From assembly GCA_030604905.1 (NCBI GenBank), contig JAUVVA010000004.1:1-64000 (forward strand): DNA of 64,000 nucleotides, in the 5' to 3' direction. How positions within the stretch are numbered: position 1 is the first letter of the stretch; each line of letters opens with the position of its first letter. The notes under the pieces were generated by a model. That model was not told the origin of the DNA and ran no database searches. It saw only the letters and a list, made by a program, of their open reading frames with translations. The translations under genes were made by a program, and so were the position numbers. Positions 17,592 to 56,877 of this stretch are shown piece by piece. This DNA comes from Verrucomicrobiota bacterium. Its GTDB lineage: Bacteria; Verrucomicrobiota; Verrucomicrobiia; Opitutales; Opitutaceae.

Positions 17592-19940
17592 CTATGGCGA
17601 CGAAGGATCGACGAGCGAAACACGCAACCGCATGAACCGCGCACGACCCAGGATATCACTGGAGTCATCCTCCACCAGGACATCCTCTCCCGGACTGCCC
17701 GGGTTGACCGCGATCGTGGCCCACGGACCGGCGGGGCTGGAGGCGGCCAGGACTTCGTAAGTCACCGCGCCCGGGCCGCGCGCGCGCCTGAACCCGAGGG
17801 CCAGCCGCCCGCGCGACGTCCGGGAGACGGAGGGCTGCGCGGGCAAAGCGGGATCCGAAGCAGATGTGCCCAGGGAAAATCGGAGCAGGTTGGGGACGCC
17901 GTCTCCAAACGGGGTGGCAAGCGGCGCGGCCAAGCCCGCATCCCGCTGGGCAAGGCTGAAGGTCTCGTTCCGCCACGCCCTATAGGCCGGGCCGGGCGAA
18001 GACGCTTCCGCGCGGAGCGTGACGACGGAATATCCCGGCATGGGCACCGTGATCGCCCCGCCCGGCCCGGGAGTGGGTTCAAACGTTTGCCACAGCTGGC
18101 CCGATGCCGAACGCCAGCCTCCAAAAGAACCGTAACCGAGCGGAGTCTGGAGGGTGGCGCTTCGTGCGGAGGAGGATCGATTGATGAGCACGACCACCAG
18201 CTCGCCGTCGATCTCGTGGACATAGGAGGAGGCAAGGACGTCCGCGGCGTTCTCGCCTGTCACCGAGACCTCGTGACGCACCGCGCCGGGCCGGATAGCC
18301 GCGGAGAAATGCTTCATCGCGACATACTTTGGAGCAGCCGACCGGGGAGTGGACCCGGTAAGCGTCTCGGTGGACGCGTTGGAACCGGTGGAGAACTGCC
18401 AGTAAAGCCAGGCGTTCTGACGGCCCGCCACCAGGGCCTGGTGGATCTTCAAGGCGATGCTCCACGCCCCGTCGGACGGGAAGCCCGAAGAGGGCGAAAG
18501 CCACGCGGAGGCCTCCCCGGAGGTCTCCGTCATCCACGAACGTTTCCCGTAGGCGGTAAATCCCAGCACCCGGCTTGGCAAACCAGCGGCCGGGCTGCTG
18601 GTCCATCCTTCGGCCCAGCGTCGCCAGGCCACGGGGTCGGCGCCGGCGGAGCTGGCGCCGTCGGCGGCGTAGCCATGGATGCAGAAAAAATCCACCGCGG
18701 CGGCCGCGACCGAATCGGCGGCGAGGGCCGTAAGGTAGCGCAGATTCTTGTGCGTTACGTTCTCACCGCTGCCAAACTGCCAGAGCGCATAGTCCGAGCC
18801 TTGCAGCAGGTCCTCCGGCCCCTTGATGCGGATGCCCCGCAGATCGTCGTATTTGTCGAACTCGGCCCGCACAGCCTTGAGCGCCGCCAGATACTGCTCG
18901 GCCCGCGGGTATGTGCAGGAGTTGTAGAAGGTCTCGAAGTTGAGCTCGTTTTGGATCGAAATCGCGTAGAACCGGGCGCCGACCCGGTTTTGAAAGCCGC
19001 GCACGTAGGCGGCGGTGCTGCGGGCGAACTGGGTGAGCGCGGACGTGGGCCCGCGGGCCGCTCCGGCATGGGGCCCGCCTGCGACGTCGTCAGGCAGACC
19101 GGAGTCGTCGAACACGTGTAGGGGCAATCCGGATACATCGAGACGACCTCCGACGAAGCTGCCGTCGGAGGCGATGTGCGGGCGCGGCGTTCCCGGTCGG
19201 GAGAAGGGCCACGCGCCGTATTGCTCGCCGGTGACGGTGCCTGAGGAAACCTTCAGCCAGGGGGCGGGCGACCAGATGGAGCCGACAAGCTTGAAGCGGG
19301 CGAGGTCTGGATCACGGGAACGGGCGGCGGCGAGGACGGCCGCGGCTCCGCGGACCATCCCCGAGTCGAGGTCGAGCGTGCGCGAGATATTGTCATCGAT
19401 GTTCGGCCCCATGACGGCGATCGGGGCGCTGAATCCGCCAAAGGAACGTCCGTAGTCGGCCGGCCCGGTGTAGGTCCGGGCGCGGTTGCCATCCGGCCCG
19501 TTGTAGTAGGAAACACCGTTCACGAGCTCCCATTCCCATTCCGGAGGTCCGGAGTAGTGCCGAGGTTGTTGGGTCGAGCGTGTCTCGAAGTTGAGCGCAT
19601 AGGGCGTGCGACCCGACCCCTTGAACCAGGGGCTGTAGTAGTGATGGTCGCTCCAGGGAGACTTGAAGCGCGGCACGAGGTCCACGCGGATCACCGAGGC
19701 GCCGAAATCATCGAGATAAAGTTCCTGCCACCAGGCCTCCCGTGGCTGGCTTCCCGAAATACAGGTGCCGAAACCGTCGATCACCTGCGCCCGCCCCGCA
19801 TCCGACAAATTCAAGCTGACCGTCTGCGCGTGCAGCGCCGGAAGGCACAGCGTGAAGGCGGTGGTCCAACAGCGGGAAACCAGCAGCGACAGAAAGCAGG
19901 GGGAGGCGGGGCGGCGGGTATCGGGGTGGCGGGGCATCAT
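17592..19940 (-). CDS. Secreted GH30-family hydrolase (endo-1,6-galactanase/xylanase-like) with recurrent C-terminal module
   Basis: VIDGFGTCISGSQPREAWWQELYLDDFGASVIRVDLVPRFKSPWSDHHYYSPWF...AISIQNELNFETFYNSCTY...WMTETSGE; C-term FGDGVPNLLRFSLGTSAS...ARFMRLRVSL. Confidence 0.85.
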   Translation of the reverse strand: MMPRHPDTRRPASPCFLSLLVSRCWTTAFTLCLPALHAQTVSLNLSDAGRAQVIDGFGTCISGSQPREAWWQELYLDDFGASVIRVDLVPRFKSPWSDHHYYSPWFKGSGRTPYALNFETRSTQQPRHYSGPPEWEWELVNGVSYYNGPDGNRARTYTGPADYGRSFGGFSAPIAVMGPNIDDNISRTLDLDSGMVRGAAAVLAAARSRDPDLARFKLVGSIWSPAPWLKVSSGTVTGEQYGAWPFSRPGTPRPHIASDGSFVGGRLDVSGLPLHVFDDSGLPDDVAGGPHAGAARGPTSALTQFARSTAAYVRGFQNRVGARFYAISIQNELNFETFYNSCTYPRAEQYLAALKAVRAEFDKYDDLRGIRIKGPEDLLQGSDYALWQFGSGENVTHKNLRYLTALAADSVAAAAVDFFCIHGYAADGASSAGADPVAWRRWAEGWTSSPAAGLPSRVLGFTAYGKRSWMTETSGEASAWLSPSSGFPSDGAWSIALKIHQALVAGRQNAWLYWQFSTGSNASTETLTGSTPRSAAPKYVAMKHFSAAIRPGAVRHEVSVTGENAADVLASSYVHEIDGELVVVLINRSSSARSATLQTPLGYGSFGGWRSASGQLWQTFEPTPGPGGAITVPMPGYSVVTLRAEASSPGPAYRAWRNETFSLAQRDAGLAAPLATPFGDGVPNLLRFSLGTSASDPALPAQPSVSRTSRGRLALGFRRARGPGAVTYEVLAASSPAGPWATIAVNPGSPGEDVLVEDDSSDILGRARFMRLRVSLVDPSSP

Positions 19941-25777: not shown

Positions 25778-27145
25778 CTAAGGGGCAAACGACAGGCTGT
25801 GCAACCACACCGGCCCGCCCCCGCAATGGCGGCAGGAGAGCTCGCCAATCTCGCGCACCGCCTTCGGCCAAACGACCTCGACCTCGTGCCACCGCCCGTC
25901 GCCCGGCACCTCGGCCGCGCACTCCATCGCCTCGTCCGATACGGCTCGAAGCACCAGCCGCCCGCCCTGCTCGCCCGCTCGCAGCCGCAGCCTCAGCCGG
26001 GTCACCGGGCGCTCCGCCCGCCACCGATGGAAGCCCACCCAGGCACCAGGCTCGCGGAGAAGGGCGGCGCCGTCGCCCTCGACCGAAAGGTCCCGCTCGC
26101 GCTCCACGGGGCCGCCCGAGGCGTGATAATCCACCCCGAGATGGCGCCCCTCGACATCGAGCCATAGCTCGCGGGCGCGCACTGGACCGCAGCCACGCGG
26201 GGAGTCCGGCGGGGCGCCATCCAGCCGCCGCGGCCGCAGCTCGCCGCGAATCCGCCGGTGCAGGGGGTCGGGACCGTCCTCGTGATAGAGGACAAGGTCC
26301 CGCCCCCGCCAGCCCGCGACGCAGGCTTGGACGGTGCGGGCCCGGTCCCGTTGGACGTCGCCGGTGTATTCAAACGGGCCATACGGATTGTCGGCGACCG
26401 CGCGCGCCAGGATGTCGCGCTCGTCCTCGAGGCGCGCCGCCTCGACCTCGCGCCTTCCGTAGAGCATATGGAAACGTCCGCAGCGGTGATACACCCACGG
26501 GCTTTCGTGGTATTTCCAGGGCTTCGACACCTCCCGCGCCGGGCCGGCCAGCTCCGTCATCGAGGCCGCGAGGGGCGCGCAGTATAGCTCCTCGTTTTGA
26601 CCGAAGTAAAGGAAGGCCCCGTGCGGCGAGAAGACGCAGACGGGCGAGACCAGCAGGCCCGACGCCGCGGATCGCACGCCGGGCGTCCGCCGCGTAATCA
26701 GCGGAGCGCCTCGCGCGTCGCGGAAGGGCCCCTGCGGCCGGTCGGCCACCGCCACGCCGATCTGGTCCACCATGGGGAAATAATACCAGTAGCGCCCGAG
26801 CGCCTCCACGCAGTCACCATCCCAGGCGGGCCCGTCGGCCCATGCGATATCCTGGCGCCGCAGCACGCAGCCGTGGTCGGTCCATGTCTCCAAATCGGAC
26901 GTCGAAAAGGCATGGTAGTCGTTCATCGACCACCATCCGTCGTTGCTCCAATGCGGATCCTGGTCAGCGTAGAGCCACAGCCTCCCGTCGCTGAAAACGT
27001 GGGCCGCGGGATCGGCGAGATACTTCGGGGTGGGCAGAAGCGCGAGCCCGTCCGGTTGCCGGGCGTCCATGATCCCTGCTTTAGCGGAGGCGAGCGCCGC
27101 GCCGCCATCCGCGCCGTTCCATTCCATTTGCAGTCGTGCGTTCAT
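25778..27145 (-). CDS. GH43-like five-bladed beta-propeller glycosidase
   Basis: KYLADPAAHVFSDGRLWLYADQD...HAFSTSDLETWTDHGCVL...AWDGDCVEALGRYWYYFPM...KYHESPWVYHRCGRFHMLYGR. Confidence 0.8.
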   Translation of the reverse strand: MNARLQMEWNGADGGAALASAKAGIMDARQPDGLALLPTPKYLADPAAHVFSDGRLWLYADQDPHWSNDGWWSMNDYHAFSTSDLETWTDHGCVLRRQDIAWADGPAWDGDCVEALGRYWYYFPMVDQIGVAVADRPQGPFRDARGAPLITRRTPGVRSAASGLLVSPVCVFSPHGAFLYFGQNEELYCAPLAASMTELAGPAREVSKPWKYHESPWVYHRCGRFHMLYGRREVEAARLEDERDILARAVADNPYGPFEYTGDVQRDRARTVQACVAGWRGRDLVLYHEDGPDPLHRRIRGELRPRRLDGAPPDSPRGCGPVRARELWLDVEGRHLGVDYHASGGPVERERDLSVEGDGAALLREPGAWVGFHRWRAERPVTRLRLRLRAGEQGGRLVLRAVSDEAMECAAEVPGDGRWHEVEVVWPKAVREIGELSCRHCGGGPVWLHSLSFAP

Positions 27146-30100
27146 TCGTTATCCCAAGGCATCTCGATTCTCAGTCGCAAAAAGCGCCGGGGCTCCTGGG
27201 CGAGAGGTTGCGGGTCCACGAAGGACACCTCTCCGCCGGTCGTGCCCGGATTCCTGGCCAAGGCCGACCAGTTCACTAGGTCGGAACTCGCTTCAACGAT
27301 GTAAACAAGGTCCGCACGGTGTCGGGCAAAGCTGAGCACCAGATGGCCGCCCGTGCTGTCGATCCGGGGCACGCGAAGGGAGCCGCCGTTGGTCGGCGAG
27401 GTGCCGAGCGCGTATTCGAGCAGGTTTGACATGCCGTCCCCGTCGGGATCGGCACCGGGCCCGATGACGCTCGCGTCCAAGCTGCTTGGCCAATGGCTTT
27501 GCTGCCACAGGGCAAAGCCCGGCAAGCGCGGGGAAACCTCGACGAGAAACTCCTCGATCGACGCGTAGAGTTCGTTGGTGCCTTGCGCGTCGTTTTCCAG
27601 ATAGACGCCAAAGCCGGTGAGGTCCCGAAAATTTCTCGGCGAATAGGTCAAGGAGCCGAGCGCCAGATTCAGATCCGTCGCCGGAGAGATCTCCGCCCAG
27701 CCGCCATCTTGCTCGTCGTCGGTGAAACTGAGCGTGCGGGCCGCCTCCGAGGCTTGGGAAAAACCGGCTTGCGAAACGAACCAACGCGTGTCTTCGCGGA
27801 CAACCCAGCGGGCGTTCGCCACGTTGGCCCAGCGCGCCGTGTAGTTGGTTTCGGCTCCGTCTCCCTGGCGGGCGATCAGCTTCGAGGTGGTGGTGAAGTG
27901 CAGTGGCCCGGCGCGGTGCGCGGGTGAAAAGTCGTCCTTGAGCCAGACAAAGAACGCGTGCGTCGCGGTCGAGGCGTTCGAACCGGTCTGGGTGCGCAGG
28001 GTGATGGCGTCCTCGGCGACGTTGCCCAGCGCCCCATTCTCCCGCACCGCGGCGATGGTGAGCGCGGGAGCGGAGTTCGAATTGAACCGCACGCGCTGGA
28101 TGCCGCCGTAGAAACGATCCGAAGGCCCGGCGTAAGAGGCGCCCGGGGAGATCAGCGGCGTCCCCAGGTCCCAGGGGATCATTCGCCGCACATCGTTCGC
28201 CGTCGAGCCTCCGTCGAGGTTGAGGGACGACTCCGTGTTCGATGCGCGGAAGTTTTGGTGGGCGGAGACGTAGTCGCCGCGCCAACGCACCACCTGCATG
28301 GTGCCCGAGCCGGCCACGTTGGTCACCGTGGCGAGGTCCGTGATCGTGCCGTGCCTCACCTCGACCAGGTAGGGTCCGCCAAGATAATCGCCGGCGGTGT
28401 AAAGACCGCCGGAGGAGATGCGGCCTCCTGTCGTGCTCCAGACCACGGCCGGCGGCGTGTTGAGGAGCAAGCCGTGCGTGGTGCGGGCCGTGACCGCGAA
28501 GGCCTGCGTGCCCCCCACGGGCACGGAGGCGAAGCCCGGCGTAATCTCCAAGGCTCCCAGCACGCCTTGCACGTTGACGCTCAGATCCGCATGGGTGCTG
28601 CGGCGGTCGGCATCGCTCACCGTGCAGCGGAGCACATAGGTGCCGGTGGCGGTGAAGGTGGCGGTGCTGGCGGACGCCGCGGGGGAGAAGTTGGAGCTGA
28701 AGCTCACCGCGCCACCGTGCGGCGCGGAAAGCACGGTCCAGGCGTAGCTGAGCTGCGCGGCCGGCGTCTCCGCATCGGTCGCGCTCGCGCTTAGTGTGGT
28801 GGAGGCGGTGGTGACGGGATTCGACGCGGCGGAGGGCGGCTGGGTGAAGACCGGCGCCTCGCCCACTTCCGCGCTGATCAGATCGACGTAGAAGAATCCT
28901 CGTCCGGTGGTGGCCACGAACACCCGCCCGGGCCGGGCGAGATCGCCCGAGATGCCGACGCCCATGTCGAGGGGGGCGGCCCCTTGGCCCGTCGGGCGCG
29001 TCCACGTGGCGCCATCGTCGGTGGAGTAGTAGATGGACGGCGCCGTGTCGCCCGTGCGCCGCCCCAGCACGTAAAGGGTCGTGCCGGTGCGCCCGGGAAG
29101 GGCCGCTCCAAACCCAAATGCGCTCACCCGTTGCCACCCGCTGATCGATTGCCAGGTGGCTCCGCCGTTGGTCGAGCGGCGAAGCGAGGTTGAGCGATCG
29201 GTGAACCAAAGCTCCCGGGCGACCCCCGGCCGGGCCTCGATGTGTGCCAACCAATGGGACGGCAGCGTGCGCTCCGAGACCAGGCTCCAGTTCGCGCCCC
29301 CGTCGGTCGAACGGAAGATCGAGCCGCCAAACGGGGAGCTGGTGTGCTCGTGGTAGGCGTAAAAGGTGAGTTCCTCCACCGCGTCGGCCGCCAAGACCGA
29401 GCTTGAGCCGTTGTAGATGTTGTTTGCCCCGCTGAAATTGATCGAGCCGCCGTTATAGACCAACCCTTGCGCGAGCTGCCAGGTGGCCCCGCCATCGACC
29501 GAATAGACCGGCCGGTGATTGTTGCCCGAATACCAGCCGGCGTTGAAGGGAATCCAAACCATGCGGGTGCGGTTGGTGGCGGACACGGCGATGTTGCCCC
29601 CCAGCGCCATGCCATAGCCGGAGGCCGGCGCGGAGGGATGTTTTCCGAGGCGGCGCCAGGTCTGCCCGCGGTCGTCGGAAGCGAGCACTTCTCCCGCACT
29701 GTATTCGGGGTCGGAAAAGGCGACCGCGATGGTGTCGGTCTGCGCGCTCACGCCGAAGCCGGTGGAGTTGGCGATCGCGCGCGTGCCGAGATGCGCGCGT
29801 GGCATCACCGTCGGGTCTTGGATGAGGAAGCCGCCCTTGTCCATCGCCCCGAGCGCCACGCCGCCTCCCCACGACAGCGGCAGCGGGAGCGCACGCATGC
29901 CGACCAACTCTTCCAGCCCGGCCATGAAAGCGAGGCCGTCCGCCACCACGGGAGTCGCCGCGAGGTTTCGATACACGTAAACCGCGTAACCGGTGGTCGC
30001 CCAAAGCTGCTGGGGCTTACCGGGTGCGAAGATCATGCCGCCGGAGTAGCTGTGGCGGGCGGAGCTGGGCTCGATCCACTCGGGCTGCACAAAGGTCACC

Positions 30101-31206
30101 GCGCGATGCGTGCCGGTCGGGAAGGCTGACGCGCTGTCGGAGGTGTGGATCCGCCAGTTGGCGCCACCGTTCGAGGAAATGAACAGGTCGCGGACGGTGT
30201 TGCCATTGTCGTTGATCGCGATGCGGTCCGGGTTGCTCGGATCCACCGCGAGGCCGGCCCACTGCCGCCAGCTGTAGGTGAAACCGGATACAGGCGGCGT
30301 GATGTTGGCCCACGCGCCCCCCCGCCAGCGCCAGACGCCGTTGGTCAAGGTGACATAGAGCGTGCCGTCGGAGCCCAGCCGCCCTTGGATCGGGTTCGCG
30401 TTTGCCGTCGGCTGCGTGCCGAGCAGGGTGAAGCTCTCCCCGCCGTCGGTGCTCCGCCAGACGCCTTCCTCCATGATTCCGAGATAGATCGTCGAGGATC
30501 GGGTTGCCCCGCCCGTCGCGACGGTCGTCGCCGGATCGATCGCCACGAAAGTGATGCCCGCGTTCTGCGCCTTGCCGTCGCGCGTCGCGCCATTGCTCCC
30601 GCCCAAAGGCAGGCTGGTCGCGATCCGCGTCCATGTGGTCCCCGAATCGAGGCTGCGCCAGAGACCGTCCTGGCGGGTTCCGAAATACAGCACGGACGAG
30701 TTGGAGGGATCCACGACCAACCGGTCCCCGGCGTGGCGCCAGGCGCTGTTGCCCCCCTGCTCGATCGTGGAGCTGAAGCCCGTCAGGGTGCTCCACGTGC
30801 GCCCTCCGTCGGTCGACCTCAGGATACCGTTTGGCCCCTGGCCATCCTCGACGTAGGCCCCGAACGCGACATAGATGCGGAGCGGATCACGCGGATCGAG
30901 GGCCATGCCATCCACATAGCGAACGGCCGGCATCTGCATCCCGTGCTCGTCCAAGAGAGCGGTCCAGCGCGCGGCCGCCCCGTCCCAGCGAAAAATCCCG
31001 CCCACATCGGTGCGGACATAGATCTCGTCGGTGGCCGGATGCGAGGCGATGCCGGTGACAAAGCCCATGCCGCGCAGGTCGATGTTGCGCCACTGCGTCT
31101 GCCCGGTGGCAAAGGCGGTCGAGGGCCGCACGCCCGCCCACGACAGGACGAGCAGAACGACAAGCAGGAGAATCGCGCGAGGGCGCCTGAACGGGGTGAT
31201 TCGCAT
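27142..31206 (-). CDS. Large secreted GH74-like beta-propeller protein with PKD/Ig-like domains and recurrent C-terminal module
   Basis: IDLRGMGFVTGIASHPATDEIYVRTDVGGIFRWD; multiple STDGGxTW; LSYAWTVLSAPHGGAVSF; C-term DPDGDGMSNLLEYALGTSP...RRFLRLRI. Confidence 0.85.
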   Translation of the reverse strand: MRITPFRRPRAILLLVVLLVLSWAGVRPSTAFATGQTQWRNIDLRGMGFVTGIASHPATDEIYVRTDVGGIFRWDGAAARWTALLDEHGMQMPAVRYVDGMALDPRDPLRIYVAFGAYVEDGQGPNGILRSTDGGRTWSTLTGFSSTIEQGGNSAWRHAGDRLVVDPSNSSVLYFGTRQDGLWRSLDSGTTWTRIATSLPLGGSNGATRDGKAQNAGITFVAIDPATTVATGGATRSSTIYLGIMEEGVWRSTDGGESFTLLGTQPTANANPIQGRLGSDGTLYVTLTNGVWRWRGGAWANITPPVSGFTYSWRQWAGLAVDPSNPDRIAINDNGNTVRDLFISSNGGANWRIHTSDSASAFPTGTHRAVTFVQPEWIEPSSARHSYSGGMIFAPGKPQQLWATTGYAVYVYRNLAATPVVADGLAFMAGLEELVGMRALPLPLSWGGGVALGAMDKGGFLIQDPTVMPRAHLGTRAIANSTGFGVSAQTDTIAVAFSDPEYSAGEVLASDDRGQTWRRLGKHPSAPASGYGMALGGNIAVSATNRTRMVWIPFNAGWYSGNNHRPVYSVDGGATWQLAQGLVYNGGSINFSGANNIYNGSSSVLAADAVEELTFYAYHEHTSSPFGGSIFRSTDGGANWSLVSERTLPSHWLAHIEARPGVARELWFTDRSTSLRRSTNGGATWQSISGWQRVSAFGFGAALPGRTGTTLYVLGRRTGDTAPSIYYSTDDGATWTRPTGQGAAPLDMGVGISGDLARPGRVFVATTGRGFFYVDLISAEVGEAPVFTQPPSAASNPVTTASTTLSASATDAETPAAQLSYAWTVLSAPHGGAVSFSSNFSPAASASTATFTATGTYVLRCTVSDADRRSTHADLSVNVQGVLGALEITPGFASVPVGGTQAFAVTARTTHGLLLNTPPAVVWSTTGGRISSGGLYTAGDYLGGPYLVEVRHGTITDLATVTNVAGSGTMQVVRWRGDYVSAHQNFRASNTESSLNLDGGSTANDVRRMIPWDLGTPLISPGASYAGPSDRFYGGIQRVRFNSNSAPALTIAAVRENGALGNVAEDAITLRTQTGSNASTATHAFFVWLKDDFSPAHRAGPLHFTTTSKLIARQGDGAETNYTARWANVANARWVVREDTRWFVSQAGFSQASEAARTLSFTDDEQDGGWAEISPATDLNLALGSLTYSPRNFRDLTGFGVYLENDAQGTNELYASIEEFLVEVSPRLPGFALWQQSHWPSSLDASVIGPGADPDGDGMSNLLEYALGTSPTNGGSLRVPRIDSTGGHLVLSFARHRADLVYIVEASSDLVNWSALARNPGTTGGEVSFVDPQPLAQEPRRFLRLRIEMPWDNE

Positions 31207-34917: not shown

Positions 34918-37293
34918 ATGACGCTTCGTCGATTCCTCGTTCCGGCCTTCTCGCTGCTCCTCGTCGGCCACGCCCTCGTCTCTCCGCTCCACGCCACGGC
35001 GGCAGACGAACGCGTCTTCTATCTCGGCGGCGCCGGCAACGAGGAGCTGTTCGACGCGTATCGGCTCTCCGACGGGCGCTGGCTGCTCGCCGGGCGCGCG
35101 ACGGCGCTCGACTGGCTGCCGGCCGGCACGCCGGTGACGGTCGCGAACGTCGGCTCCCTGATCAACAGCCCCAACTCCACCCGGAACTGGATCGGCTTTC
35201 TCCTCGTTGTATCCGCGGACCTGCGACAGATCGAGCGCTGCTGGCACCTGCCCAAGGGCGCCGCGGAAAGCATCCGCCGCATCCGCGGCACCGAGGTGCC
35301 CGGCGATCGCACCGGCGACCTCTACATCTCGGGCAACGTGGCCCGCAACTCCTGGGGCGACACCCAGGGCGGCTACTTCGTCGCGAAGCTGGATGACAAC
35401 TTCCTCTCCGGCACCCCCTCCGACCTCGCCTGGGCCGTCAACATGAGCGCGCGGGGCGAGTTGAAGGACAACCAACCCTGGGACGTGGCGAAGGCGGGTG
35501 GCGACACCCTTCTGGTCGCCGTGACCGGCTATCCCCACAGCCCCGACTGGATGGCGGCCGAGTTCTTCGACGGCGCAGGGAAACCCCGGACGCTCCCAAA
35601 TCTTCGCGCCAACAACCGCGGGCAGATCGTCCTCAAGACAAATTCGACCGGCGACTTTCGCTCCTGGACCTACGCCGACCACGCCGCCACCACCTCCGAC
35701 ACCAACGGCGGCTTGCGGCGCGGCCGCTGGCCCATGGACGCCTTGTTCGACGGCCCCTATGGCCTCCCCGGCAACGGCGCCGGTCGCGGCTACACCGGCT
35801 ATCGCACCACCAGCTACGCCGGCCACATTTCCGCGGTGGTCCTGGACCGCCGCACCAACGATTTTTACCTCGGCGCGAACCACAAGACCGCGCTGCCCGA
35901 CAACAAGCCCGACTTCGAGCCCTGGGTCATCTCCTACGCCGCCGACGGCACCATGCGGTGGTGGTCCCGCCTCTACTCCGAATGGCGCGACAGCACCAGC
36001 GGCCCGCTCGCCAATGGCGCGATCGACATCGACCTCGACAGCAACAACGACGGCGTCCTCGACCGCTCCAGCGAAGGCCTGCTCTCCACGCCCGACCAGT
36101 ATGTGGACGCTCTCGCGATCGACTACGCGCACGACAAGCTGATCGTCGGCGCCCGCAGCCACGGCAACAACACGAGCAACTTTTGGTCCGGCACCGCCGC
36201 CTCCATCCCCGGTGCCCCCCCGGGCTACAGCGGCTTCCAACGCCAGTTCACCGGCACCGTCGGCAACGTGCACATCTCGTGGCTCGGTCGCCACGATCTC
36301 GAGGACGGCACCCTTCGCGGCGCCACCTACCTGGCCGGCTTTGACCGATTCGGGAACGTCAACGCCTCTGGCGGCTACTCCGATCCCAATCTAGCCGGCT
36401 GGCCCAATGTGAACAGCGGGTGGCCGAACCTCAACACCACCCGTATCCGGCCCAACCGCCTCGTCGTGGACGCCACCGGGCGGGTGATCGTGATCGGCGT
36501 CGCGCCGCGGCTCGCCACCACCAAGACCGCATGGCAACCCCTCCTGCCACCCCCTGCCGTCGCCCCCTGGCATGAATTCGTGCGCATCTACTCGCCCGGT
36601 CTCGACCAGTTGCTCTACGGCAGCGCGCTGGTCGGCGCCTTCACCTACCCGGGAGGAGCGACCAACGTCGAACCCGAAGGAGCCGAAGGCGTCTCCATCA
36701 ACGGCGTCGCCGCCGCGCCTGGTGGCGTCCTGGTCGTGGGTGGCGGACTGGAGACCAACGGCGCTCCGCAGGGGAATCCCATCCGCCAAGGCGACGCACC
36801 CACATGGGCCCGCGGTGCGCGTGCCGCCGCGGACGGGCTGGTTGCCCGCCTCGCCCTACCCGGCACCACCGCGCAGACCTTCGCCGCCTGGAGTCTCGGC
36901 CACCTCGGCCGCGCTGATGCGCCCTGGGACGCGGACCCTGACGGCGACGGAATCCCCAACCTTGTTGAATACGCGCTCGGCCTCTCGCCCACCGCGCCCG
37001 ACGCCACTGGCGACGCCCTCTCGCCCCACGTCGATACGCTCCCCGGCGCCGGCCCGCGCCTGCGCCTTCAAGTGCGACGCGACCCGGGGCGTCACGACGT
37101 CCGGCTGTCCGTCGAGGCGAGTTCCAACCTCGTTGAGTGGGTGGAGATCGCCCGCAGCGAGGCGGGCGGCTCCTTCCGCGGTCCCGGCTACGTCAGCGGC
37201 GAGGTGGCTGGCGACGCACCGCGCACCGTGGAGATCGGCGACCCGGAGCCTTCCGAACGGCGCTTTCTCCGCCTGCGCGCCACGCGCCCCTAG
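34918..37293 (+). CDS. Secreted protein of unknown function with recurrent C-terminal DPDGDG...RRFLRLR module
   Basis: Signal peptide; long unrecognised central region; C-term DADPDGDGIPNLVEYALGLSPTAP...VRLSVEASSNLVEWVEIA...ERRFLRLRATRP. Confidence 0.75.
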   Translation: MTLRRFLVPAFSLLLVGHALVSPLHATAADERVFYLGGAGNEELFDAYRLSDGRWLLAGRATALDWLPAGTPVTVANVGSLINSPNSTRNWIGFLLVVSADLRQIERCWHLPKGAAESIRRIRGTEVPGDRTGDLYISGNVARNSWGDTQGGYFVAKLDDNFLSGTPSDLAWAVNMSARGELKDNQPWDVAKAGGDTLLVAVTGYPHSPDWMAAEFFDGAGKPRTLPNLRANNRGQIVLKTNSTGDFRSWTYADHAATTSDTNGGLRRGRWPMDALFDGPYGLPGNGAGRGYTGYRTTSYAGHISAVVLDRRTNDFYLGANHKTALPDNKPDFEPWVISYAADGTMRWWSRLYSEWRDSTSGPLANGAIDIDLDSNNDGVLDRSSEGLLSTPDQYVDALAIDYAHDKLIVGARSHGNNTSNFWSGTAASIPGAPPGYSGFQRQFTGTVGNVHISWLGRHDLEDGTLRGATYLAGFDRFGNVNASGGYSDPNLAGWPNVNSGWPNLNTTRIRPNRLVVDATGRVIVIGVAPRLATTKTAWQPLLPPPAVAPWHEFVRIYSPGLDQLLYGSALVGAFTYPGGATNVEPEGAEGVSINGVAAAPGGVLVVGGGLETNGAPQGNPIRQGDAPTWARGARAAADGLVARLALPGTTAQTFAAWSLGHLGRADAPWDADPDGDGIPNLVEYALGLSPTAPDATGDALSPHVDTLPGAGPRLRLQVRRDPGRHDVRLSVEASSNLVEWVEIARSEAGGSFRGPGYVSGEVAGDAPRTVEIGDPEPSERRFLRLRATRP

Positions 37294-49508: not shown

Positions 49509-50369
49509 TCAGGCGCGGCGGCGACGGCGGGAGACGGCGGCACCGACCGCCACCAACCCCGCCAAGGCGGCGAAACTCGACGGCTCGGGAATAACGGTGA
49601 AGGCGAGATCGTCGAAACGAACAAACCCGTTCCCCACCAGATCAAAGCCGGTGATCAGCTTCCCCGTGGGAGCGACGAAACCAAAGAAAAGATCCGATCC
49701 CTGCGAAGCGGTGCCCGCGCTCGGGTTGGTCCCAGCCTGGGAGAACGCGGTCAAGCTGACAGAGGTATTGTCGTTGAAATAAATCGTCGGCGTGTAGGTG
49801 CGGTTGGCGTCGCGCCATAGCGCGGTGATGGCGAAGGAATCCACCGCGGTGCCGAACCGGAACTGGTGGCTGCCACTATTGGCTCCTCCGAGGAAGAAGC
49901 CTCCCGACACGCCGGTCTGGTTCGCCACCGTCGCGTTCACCCTCCACTGAGTCCCCGTGGTGGCGGGCTTGGAAATCGTCATCGTCGCGGTGAAACCCGC
50001 GCCATACTGCGCGGTGAAGGACGAAAACGGATCCGACTCATACACCGCCGGCGTCGGACTGGTGGAATATTTCGGCACAAAGGTCGTGCTATCAAAAGTG
50101 ATCACGCCGCCGTAGCCTCCGTTGAACGCGGCGGTCAGACGCGTCCTGTAATCATCCAAAGAAACCACGCCAGAAGGGGCTCCGCCCGGGTAGGCGTTCC
50201 CCTCGATGAAGTTGCTCGGCGTGGTGCCGGCGCCGACGTTGTTGTCGATAAAGAGAAAGCCGCCGGAACCATAAGCGCCGGAGACGTTGCCGGTAGCCAT
50301 CTGGGCCGCGAGCGAAAGCGGCAACAAGGTGCCACCGAGGAGCGAGAGGAGGATGTGCTGGGGTTTCAT
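49509..50369 (-). CDS. PEP-CTERM sorting-domain protein
   Basis: Signal peptide MKPQHILLSLLGGTLLPLSLAAQ; C-term VIPEPSSFAALAGLVAVGAAVSRRRRRA. Confidence 0.92.
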   Translation of the reverse strand: MKPQHILLSLLGGTLLPLSLAAQMATGNVSGAYGSGGFLFIDNNVGAGTTPSNFIEGNAYPGGAPSGVVSLDDYRTRLTAAFNGGYGGVITFDSTTFVPKYSTSPTPAVYESDPFSSFTAQYGAGFTATMTISKPATTGTQWRVNATVANQTGVSGGFFLGGANSGSHQFRFGTAVDSFAITALWRDANRTYTPTIYFNDNTSVSLTAFSQAGTNPSAGTASQGSDLFFGFVAPTGKLITGFDLVGNGFVRFDDLAFTVIPEPSSFAALAGLVAVGAAVSRRRRRA

Positions 50370-50421
50370 AGACGACACAGGGAGTGGGCGCGGATGCGGG
50401 CCGCGTTCGCAATTTCTTGAA

Positions 50422-50439
50422 ATTTGAAACCGTTCAAAT
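50422..50439. promoter_or_regulatory. Putative operator ATTTGAA-ACCG-TTCAAAT
   Basis: 7-bp perfect inverted repeat between the PEP-CTERM gene (-) and a LacI gene (+). Confidence 0.55.
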
Positions 50440-53912: not shown

Positions 53913-54875
53913 ATGCTCCCTTCGCTTGCTCCCCTCGCGCGCCTCCGCCGGGCCCTCTGCCTTCTCGCGATCTGCCTCGCCGGCAACCTCGTCGGCGCCG
54001 ACACACTGCGCGTCTTTTACATCGGCAACAGCGTGACCGACACCATCCGCTACGACGCCCTAGCCGAACTGGCGAGGAGCCGGGGCGACACGATCGTCTG
54101 GAGCCGCCACATGGTGCCGGGCGCGCCCCTGTCCTGGATCTGGCAAAAAGGCGGCGGCTTCACGAAGCGCGAGTTCGGCCCCGCGCCGGAAGCCTTGGCC
54201 AACCACGATTGGGATGCCGTCGTGGCTCAACCTTTCGATCGCCACCTGACCAGCACGTCAGGCGAAGGCGATTTGGAGGTGATCCAGGAGATGATCAAGC
54301 TGCAGGCGGGGCGAAACCCCGCGGCGCGCTTCTACGTTTATTCGCGTTGGCCAAGGATGGTCGGCCTCGACGGGAAGAGCTTCAAATTCGACCAAGACGA
54401 CTACGATCCATCCACGCCCGGAAGCCGACCCGACCTCTCGGGCGTCCAAGCGTGGTCCTCCCTCTGGGAACGCCGCTATAAGCCGGGCGCCTGGGATGGA
54501 AGCAACGAGAGTCGCGACTACTTCGAGCGGGTGGTGGCCGGCCTGCGGGACGCCAACCCGCAACTCGCCCACCCGGTCGGGATCGTGCCGGTGGGCGACG
54601 TGTTGCACGCGTTGGACCGCAAGATGGCGCGAGGCGAGGTGCCGGGCTTCGATACTGTCTGGCTCTTCTACAAGGACGGCGTGCACATGAACGACCACGG
54701 CTCCTACGTCGCCGCGCTGACCTTCTACGCGACGCTTCTGAAGAAGGCGCCGCTGGGCCTCTCCACCAGCGCCTACGGCGGCGATAAAATCAGTCCGGCG
54801 TTGGCCCAGCTCATCCAGGAGACGGTTTGGGAGATCGTTTCGCGGCACCCGCTCACCGGCGTAAAAGCGCCCTGA
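53913..54875 (+). CDS. Secreted SGNH/GDSL-like hydrolase
   Basis: Signal peptide; LRVFYIGNSVTDTIRYDALAELARSRG (block I-like) and YKDGVHMNDHGSYVAAL (Asp-x-x-His block). Confidence 0.7.
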   Translation: MLPSLAPLARLRRALCLLAICLAGNLVGADTLRVFYIGNSVTDTIRYDALAELARSRGDTIVWSRHMVPGAPLSWIWQKGGGFTKREFGPAPEALANHDWDAVVAQPFDRHLTSTSGEGDLEVIQEMIKLQAGRNPAARFYVYSRWPRMVGLDGKSFKFDQDDYDPSTPGSRPDLSGVQAWSSLWERRYKPGAWDGSNESRDYFERVVAGLRDANPQLAHPVGIVPVGDVLHALDRKMARGEVPGFDTVWLFYKDGVHMNDHGSYVAALTFYATLLKKAPLGLSTSAYGGDKISPALAQLIQETVWEIVSRHPLTGVKAP

Positions 54876-55023
54876 CGCGCCGCGGCAAGCGGGGTGCATT
54901 ATGCTCCGCCTGAAGCGCGCGCCGGTGCTAAACAAACTTCCGTTTCTCGAGCTGGAGAGGTTTGGACCCGGTCCCAAAGCGGGCCAATTGAGAATCAACG
55001 ACCGCACCGCTGAAAGAAGGACC

Positions 55024-56877
55024 ATGTCCTCTTCGCTACCCCTTCGCGCCGCCACCCGCGCGCTTCTCGCGACTGTCGCGCTTCTTCCCCTCGCACAGGC
55101 TCAGACCAACGGGACCTGGAATGCGGCCTCCGGGAATTGGATTGGCGGCGCCAACTGGGCCGACGGCGCGATCGCGAACGGCATCGGCGCCGTCGCGACC
55201 TTCGCGCCGAGCACGACGAACATCACCGTCACCAACGACCTGACCGATCTCGTCTTGGGTGGTATCTCGATCGGCACTACCGCCACTCATACCACCACGA
55301 TAAGCGGCGGAAGCATTCTCCTCCGAAACGGCACAGAGAGCGTGCCCACCACCCCGGTCATCCACCTGGGCTCCACCGGTTTTTCCGCGAACCTTTCCCT
55401 CAACTCGACCCTCACCGGCACCCACGGCTTCACGCTAACCAGCACGAACAACAATCCGCGCCTCACCATTGGAGGCACCAACACCAGCCTGAGCGGAACG
55501 GTGACGATCAATTCCGCGACCCTGGCGCTCAACAACGACAGCGCTCTTGGATCGGCCAACGTCGTGCTAAACGGAGGCAACTTCACCGGCAATAACGGCC
55601 GCACGATCAACAACGCGGTGACATGGGCCGCCGGCTCCTTCAGCCAAGACACCGGCAGCAACGACTCGGGCGCCACCTCGACCATCACGTTCTCCGGGCC
55701 GGTCACCCTCAACGCCGCCTCCGGCAACCTCGTTAACAGCGCCCCCAATCGCACCGTCAGCAACGTCGTTCGCTTTACCGGAGTCCTGTCCGGCGGCACC
55801 GCGGGCAACACCTTCACGCTCAACAACGGCAACGAGCAGGGCAACGTCTTCACCGCCTTCACCAACGCCAACACCTTCGCGCACAACATCACCGTCAACC
55901 ACTCGGGAGGCGGCAGCCCCGCGAGCGGGCTCGGCAAAAGCGGATCGATGGGAATTGTGGTGGGGAACGACGCCGCTCTTTCCGCTGCCACCGTCACCAT
56001 CGCGGCCGGCACGCATCGCTTCTCCCTGGCCAGCACCGACTCCGCGGCGCGCAGCCTGGCCAACAACTTCGTCTGGCAGACCAATAACGCGACGTCCGGC
56101 AACGCCCCCGCCTACCTCTTTAATTTTGGCGCCTACAATCCCGTCACCCCCACCTACACGACCGTGCAAAACGTTGGGAACAACGTTACCTTGGGCGGCA
56201 CCGGCGACGTCGCCATCGGCGCACTCACGATCAACGCGAACACCGGCGCGGTCGCCGCCACCCATCGCCGCCTCAATGTCTCGGGCGCCACCGTCGCCAC
56301 CGTCAACGGCGTGCTCTCCCGCACCGGCACGCTCGCCGCAGCCAGCCTGGTCTTGGAGAAAACCGGCAGCGGCACCCTCGTCCTGACCAACGCGGGCAAC
56401 ACTTACGACGGCGTGTTCAACGTCGCCGGAGGACGGCTCGTCGTCGATGGCGCGCTCCCCGCATCCACCGTCACCGTCGGCCCCGGCGCCGCCATCGGCG
56501 GCAACGGCACGATCACCCACAGCCTCGCCTTCGACTCCGGCGCAAAGTTCGTCTTCGATCCCGCCGCGACACTCAAGGCCGGGTCCCTCAGCTTCACCAA
56601 TTTCAGCGTGGGCGACCTGCTCGGGTTTGGCCCCGAAGTGGCGGACGGCGTATATACCCTGCTCCAGCGCACCAACAACAACAGCATCTCGAGCACGGGA
56701 CTGCAAAATTTAGGCGCCGCCAATGCCTACGAACTCGGCGGCGGTCGATCCGCCTACTTTCTGACGAATGGCAGCCAGCTTGATCTCGTCGTCGCGATCC
56801 CCGAGCCCGCGGCTTTTGGCGCAATGGCCGGATTCGGTGCGCTCGGCTTGGCCGCCCTCCGCCGACGCCGCCGTTAG
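55024..56877 (+). CDS. PEP-CTERM protein with autotransporter-associated beta-strand repeats
   Basis: GTWNAASGNWIGGANWADG...LVLTNAGNTYDGVFNVAGGRLVVDGALPASTVTVGPGAAIGGNGTI; C-term IPEPAAFGAMAGFGALGLAALRRRRR. Confidence 0.92.
   Translation: MSSSLPLRAATRALLATVALLPLAQAQTNGTWNAASGNWIGGANWADGAIANGIGAVATFAPSTTNITVTNDLTDLVLGGISIGTTATHTTTISGGSILLRNGTESVPTTPVIHLGSTGFSANLSLNSTLTGTHGFTLTSTNNNPRLTIGGTNTSLSGTVTINSATLALNNDSALGSANVVLNGGNFTGNNGRTINNAVTWAAGSFSQDTGSNDSGATSTITFSGPVTLNAASGNLVNSAPNRTVSNVVRFTGVLSGGTAGNTFTLNNGNEQGNVFTAFTNANTFAHNITVNHSGGGSPASGLGKSGSMGIVVGNDAALSAATVTIAAGTHRFSLASTDSAARSLANNFVWQTNNATSGNAPAYLFNFGAYNPVTPTYTTVQNVGNNVTLGGTGDVAIGALTINANTGAVAATHRRLNVSGATVATVNGVLSRTGTLAAASLVLEKTGSGTLVLTNAGNTYDGVFNVAGGRLVVDGALPASTVTVGPGAAIGGNGTITHSLAFDSGAKFVFDPAATLKAGSLSFTNFSVGDLLGFGPEVADGVYTLLQRTNNNSISSTGLQNLGAANAYELGGGRSAYFLTNGSQLDLVVAIPEPAAFGAMAGFGALGLAALRRRRR

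Follow-up and report, generated by a model that had tools for sequence, protein, structure and literature searches.

What the C-termini of three otherwise unrelated secreted proteins have in common, and what their shared end might do, is the question raised by a 64,000-nt stretch of DNA (the window; contig JAUVVA010000004.1, positions 1-64,000, assembly GCA_030604905.1) from a Verrucomicrobiota bacterium of the Opitutaceae. A sequence-only reading of the window had described one pattern at the ends of these proteins. An HMM of ∼125 residues was grown from the window's own genome, and this single profile matched all three C-termini (tails) end to end, with i-E values of 3e-31 or better, at the places where that reading had put them:

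34918..36876, forward strand: signal sequence and ∼650-aa body carrying a tail (from the translation)
36877..37290, forward strand: tail of the 34918-37293 protein, HMM i-E 2.8e-31, 1 aa before the stop
27142..31206, reverse strand: carrier, a BNR/Sortilin-like propeller protein with a PKD-like domain (Pfam PF15902, PF02012)
27148..27519, reverse strand: tail of the GH74-like/Sortilin-BNR protein, HMM i-E 6.5e-41, 5 aa before the stop
17592..19940, reverse strand: carrier, a GH30-type xylanase-like protein (Pfam PF17189; NCBIfam NF052681 below cut-off)
17601..17987, reverse strand: tail of the GH30 protein, HMM i-E 2.9e-35, 6 aa before the stop

The profile runs from a W/F-containing helix through a loop, D-P-D-G-D-G-x-x-N-L-L-E-Y-A-L-G, into ∼90 residues that hold Y-x-V-E-x-S-x-D-L-x-x-W and a final R-R-F-L-R-L-R-V. 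In the 36877..37290 tail these parts are the helix FAAWSLGHL, the EF-hand/TSP3-like loop DADPDGDGIPNLVEYALG and a β-sandwich ending RRFLRLRATRP. The bodies are unrelated, as had been claimed: the ∼650-aa body and the rest of the 34918-37293 protein gave no family match in Pfam or NCBIfam, and the other two belong to Sortilin/BNR and GH30C, respectively. A DxDGDG start had been ascribed to all three tails, and here the GH30 copy departs from the description, because most of its loop is lost (ATPFGDGVPNLLRFSLG; the degenerate loop reads ATPFGDGVPNLLRF) and the sandwich is kept. With one tail as query, 38 places in its own genome matched at E ≤ 0.01, the best other place at 4e-21, which excludes chance likeness.

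Positions 6955-48271 of the window form a polysaccharide-degradation region with trehalase-like, GH42, GH30, GH43, BNR/Sortilin-type (BNR/GH74-like), LamG and CEMIP/CBM96/fn3 proteins. Elsewhere in the window three ORFs end in PEP-CTERM tails (786-1655 and 49509-50438, reverse strand; 54865-56877, forward strand).

Present on all three proteins as first described, the module proved to be part of a far larger family. Full copies numbered 33 in the window's genome and 54 in a complete relative, IMCC26134 (CP011265, 4,001,000 bp). The tail was found in 24 of 29 genomes in a search of relatives, where a single genome of the same genus could hold as many as 76 matches, and in 120 of 241 genomes in a phylum-wide draw of Verrucomicrobiota. 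A GTDB search over 84,980 species, queried with a 12-sequence subset of 30 tails, gave 237 confirmed matches, and the best 80 of these carried a Verrucomicrobiota label or came from unclassified or apparently misbinned MAGs (one labelled Oxalobacteraceae). One copy (G243:C1:1739114-1739401) has an in-frame TAG, and its gene is apparently decayed.

The domain is strictly placed. Full copies ended within 10 aa of the stop in 31 of 33 cases in the window's own genome, 54 of 54 in IMCC26134, 84 of 89 at the GTDB loci, and for all 18 distinct tails of an additional set, drawn mostly from Akkermansia; in 123 of 189 distinct tails, 3-5 residues follow the F-x-R-x-R/K box. In IMCC26134, matches to the loop half only were internal (12/12), which makes the terminal rule a property of the composite; matches to the sandwich only were terminal (3/3), and position therefore goes with the sandwich. 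The exceptions are few. At L010, L080 and L122, 24-33 residues follow the tail; at L014 an SGNH-type domain follows an internal copy; and L105 (4117-6360), the only tandem case seen, has three tails in a row at its C-terminus. An internal copy is followed by a TIGR02597 module at L067 (4588-7290) and by a similar, TIGR02597-like arrangement at L064. TIGR02597 is, like the tail, a C-terminal module of Verrucomicrobiota, but its ∼300-aa sequence is unrelated.

AlphaFold2 predicted a helix, a loop, a second helix and then six or seven strands forming an Ig/FN3-like β-sandwich, with a pLDDT of 92.9 for the GH74-like tail, modelled from 30 sequences, and of 90.1 for the tail of the 34918-37293 protein, modelled from 69. 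Foldseek returned no match in the PDB at E ≤ 1e-3, and its best matches were FN3/Ig-type sandwiches with TM of about 0.3-0.4. Among 30 tails, Pfam TSP3_bac matched five (best E 1.6e-4) and the NCBIfam Amuc_1099_fam matched ten (best 8e-6, below the curated cut-off where shown). Pfam and NCBIfam thus cover only the ∼22-residue TSP3-like loop, and weakly; the ∼125-residue domain is undescribed there, as the sequence-only reading had supposed, and no already described sorting domain in these databases covers it. Literature searches on the motif, and on a C-terminal sorting domain of Verrucomicrobia, yielded no description of it.

That reading had also given the module a Ca2+-binding-like DxDGDG start. 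Among 156 tails with a parsed loop, the calcium ligands are kept at D1 in 87%, D3 in 83%, D5 in 92% and E12 in 83%. D1, D3 and E12 are lost in Akkermansia, where the loop reads CPAGDGISNLMKY, and in the GH30 tail of the window, and the sandwich persists. Since ligands are often lost, the window's GH30 copy included, the sandwich is the constant part; sandwich-only copies are also C-terminal, and calcium binding is rejected as the core function. An ordinary calcium-binding module without a dedicated role would explain the likeness of the loop to the D-x-D-x-D-G-x-x-N-x-x-E type seen in the TSP3 repeat (PF18884) and dockerins, and the TSP3_bac matches. These families, however, account for only ∼22 of 125 residues, the ligands are lost in many copies in which the sandwich stays, and loop-only copies lie inside proteins whereas composites lie at the end, so that we regard this explanation as very improbable.

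Carriers of the tail are diverse and look exported. The 35 carriers in the window's own genome contain 64 Pfam families, including PKD, LamG, Calx-beta, RCC1, subtilase, GDSL lipase, Sortilin and CBM96, which bears out the view of a portable domain. By a simple heuristic rather than SignalP, signal-peptide-like N-termini were called in 29/34, 50/52, 51/58 and 17/18 carriers of four sets, compared with 16-22% of interior stretches. Full copies are thus nearly all terminal and sit on exported proteins, most with signal-peptide-like N-termini, as predicted, rather than being mostly internal or cytoplasmic. A tail that is predicted to be compact and closes mostly long carriers (often >1000 aa) could also be a C-terminal folding cap, or a shield against proteases, that keeps long exported proteins stable. 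We consider such a role improbable, because long secreted proteins of the same locus lack the tail, carriers of only 371 and 405 aa exist, and the exchange with PEP-CTERM set out below would be left unexplained.

The tail had been proposed as an alternative to PEP-CTERM, and homologous bodies now show it in the PEP-CTERM slot. At L112, two divergent neighbouring paralogues with bodies 62% identical part at the same point, where one continues IPEPSAFALAGIAAGSFVLRRRRGN (PEP-CTERM) and the other enters the tail. At L071 and L088, the tail follows a choice-of-anchor M domain (above cut-off) in the encoded protein; at L088, the next gene carries choice-of-anchor M and then PEP-CTERM. Carriers in the window's own genome include choice-of-anchor D (2) and choice-of-anchor M (1) proteins and relatives of rhombosortase-, myxosortase- and LPXTG-anchored proteases. 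Choice-of-anchor and sortase-type protease bodies elsewhere end in known anchors (NCBIfam families). The tail, which lies at the anchor position of such bodies and is exchangeable with PEP-CTERM, is therefore most simply another anchor or sorting end. Like PEP-CTERM (PF07589), with its exosortase (PF09721), it is C-terminal and present in many copies in the same genomes. It differs from PEP-CTERM in being a folded ∼125-aa domain, and the PEP motif, transmembrane helix and basic tail are absent from the aligned tails.

The link to exosortase extends to whole genomes. Among the 241 genomes, 116 had both the tail and exosortase PF09721, 4 the tail only, 64 exosortase only and 57 neither; exosortase was thus found in 116 of 120 tail genomes vs. 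64 of 121 tail-less ones (Fisher P 2e-16, kinship of genomes ignored). Same-strand PEP-CTERM genes adjoin tail genes four times in IMCC26134 (0.22 expected, P 8e-4), a PEP-CTERM gene adjoins 3 of 6 tail genes in the Akkermansia genome G060 (0.04 expected, P 4e-4), and two such adjacencies occur in G243 (0.04 expected, P 2e-3), under a circular-shift null that leaves the clustering of secreted-protein genes outside. Over the fetched loci as a whole, a PEP-CTERM gene lies next to the tail ORF on the same strand in only 15 of 202 cases, and adjacency is therefore a tendency. Among the matches listed, the adjacent PEP-CTERM proteins show no sequence likeness across Akkermansia loci that would mark a dedicated partner, and hence no single receptor family is proposed. 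No dedicated processing or receptor partner emerged from these comparisons, which gave exosortase co-occurrence only.

For most tail genes examined at the Akkermansia loci L179, L180, L183, L185, L187 and L189, a gene for a ∼230-300-aa PEP-CTERM protein lies directly upstream on the same strand, and the bodies of these proteins differ from locus to locus. Both tail genes of A. muciniphila also have a PEP-CTERM gene immediately upstream. The PF09721 search gave no exosortase match in A. muciniphila and did match other Akkermansia genomes; the A. muciniphila genome paper names Amuc_1470 as EpsH, an exosortase (PMC3048395).

The architecture recalls type IX secretion. The CTD of the type IX secretion system (T9SS) is an Ig-like sandwich that forms the extreme C-terminus of signal-peptide proteins whose bodies are unrelated, in dozens of copies per genome. 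The tail, a predicted folded β-sandwich that closes exported proteins at their C-terminal end, resembles it (Por_Secre_tail PF18962/TIGR04183) in all these respects and differs in the helix-loop-helix lead-in, which belongs to the tail. When 30 tails were compared with Pfam and NCBIfam at E ≤ 1, neither Por_Secre_tail nor TIGR04183 was among the matches. The PorV family was found in 0 of 241 Verrucomicrobiota genomes above cut-off, and SprA (SprA_N) likewise in 0 of 241, a weak negative because no control genome matched either. With no marker above cut-off and no tail match to CTD models, T9SS is unlikely to be the tail's system.

The main rival explanation is a C-terminal binding module, whose sandwich would retain the carrier through affinity for a glycan, for an S-layer-like protein or for exopolysaccharide of the cell itself, and would take no part in transport. 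The FN3/Ig-like predicted fold is consistent with this, as is the glycan-active nature of many carriers, and a weak sequence likeness to the CBM22 chains 4xup/4xun (E 0.27-0.64) points the same way. So does A. muciniphila, in which the two tail proteins, one a sulfatase and the other a GH18 protein, both carry a BACON domain just upstream of the tail. Judging from the BACON match and its position, these two would be Amuc_0953 (sulfatase) and Amuc_2164 (GH18), for which BACON was reported "on the C-terminus" (PMC3048395). BACON (PF13004) itself is rejected as the identity of the tail: reported as C-terminal in these proteins, it matches the adjoining stretch without overlap (residues 1286-1342 in one carrier, with the tail from 1349), and the match stops where the tail begins. 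Binding modules, however, usually sit at either end or inside a protein, whereas full tails are nearly all terminal and single; proteases, GDSL lipases and RCC1 proteins are found among the carriers too; and the tail and PEP-CTERM replace each other at one and the same point. We therefore judge this explanation somewhat unlikely.

Amuc_1099, a secretin-operon protein (L217:5363-6418, reverse strand), was considered as related machinery and set aside, as only its TSP3-like loop aligns well (16 bits). Its family matches 210 of the 241 genomes at E ≤ 0.001 and is therefore without discriminating power for the machinery of the tail.

These data lead us to lean slightly towards the view that (i) the tail is a Verrucomicrobiota C-terminal sorting or retention domain, which works like the T9SS CTD or PEP-CTERM and is identical to neither; and (ii) it is probably the phylum's own signal for where its carriers end up, because, on proteins that are otherwise alike, it stands in place of a tail known for membrane sorting. 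In the mechanism we propose, carriers would be exported through Sec, as their N-termini suggest, and then fold in the periplasm, the tail forming an Ig/FN3-like sandwich braced by the helix-loop-helix. A phylum-specific receptor or translocon would recognise the tail from the extreme C-terminus and either bring the carrier to the cell surface or its matrix or keep it there. The tail would thereby do the job of PEP-CTERM on sister proteins, without a transmembrane tail. A more far-reaching version, which we put forward only tentatively, is that the tail is the signal of an undescribed, phylum-wide delivery or anchoring system with its own outer-membrane receptor or translocon, which might run parallel to type IX, be coordinated with exosortase and act on the mucin-active enzymes of A. 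muciniphila.

To our knowledge, the placement of many large polymer-degrading enzymes by Verrucomicrobiota, A. muciniphila among them, is largely unexplained. A terminal domain on dozens of unrelated exported proteins per genome offers a handle for finding the machinery, and the tail family permits re-annotation of "hypothetical" C-termini across Verrucomicrobiota. In the gut commensal A. muciniphila, surface display could be tested through two natural carriers, the tail proteins taken to be Amuc_0953 (sulfatase) and Amuc_2164 (GH18 enzyme).
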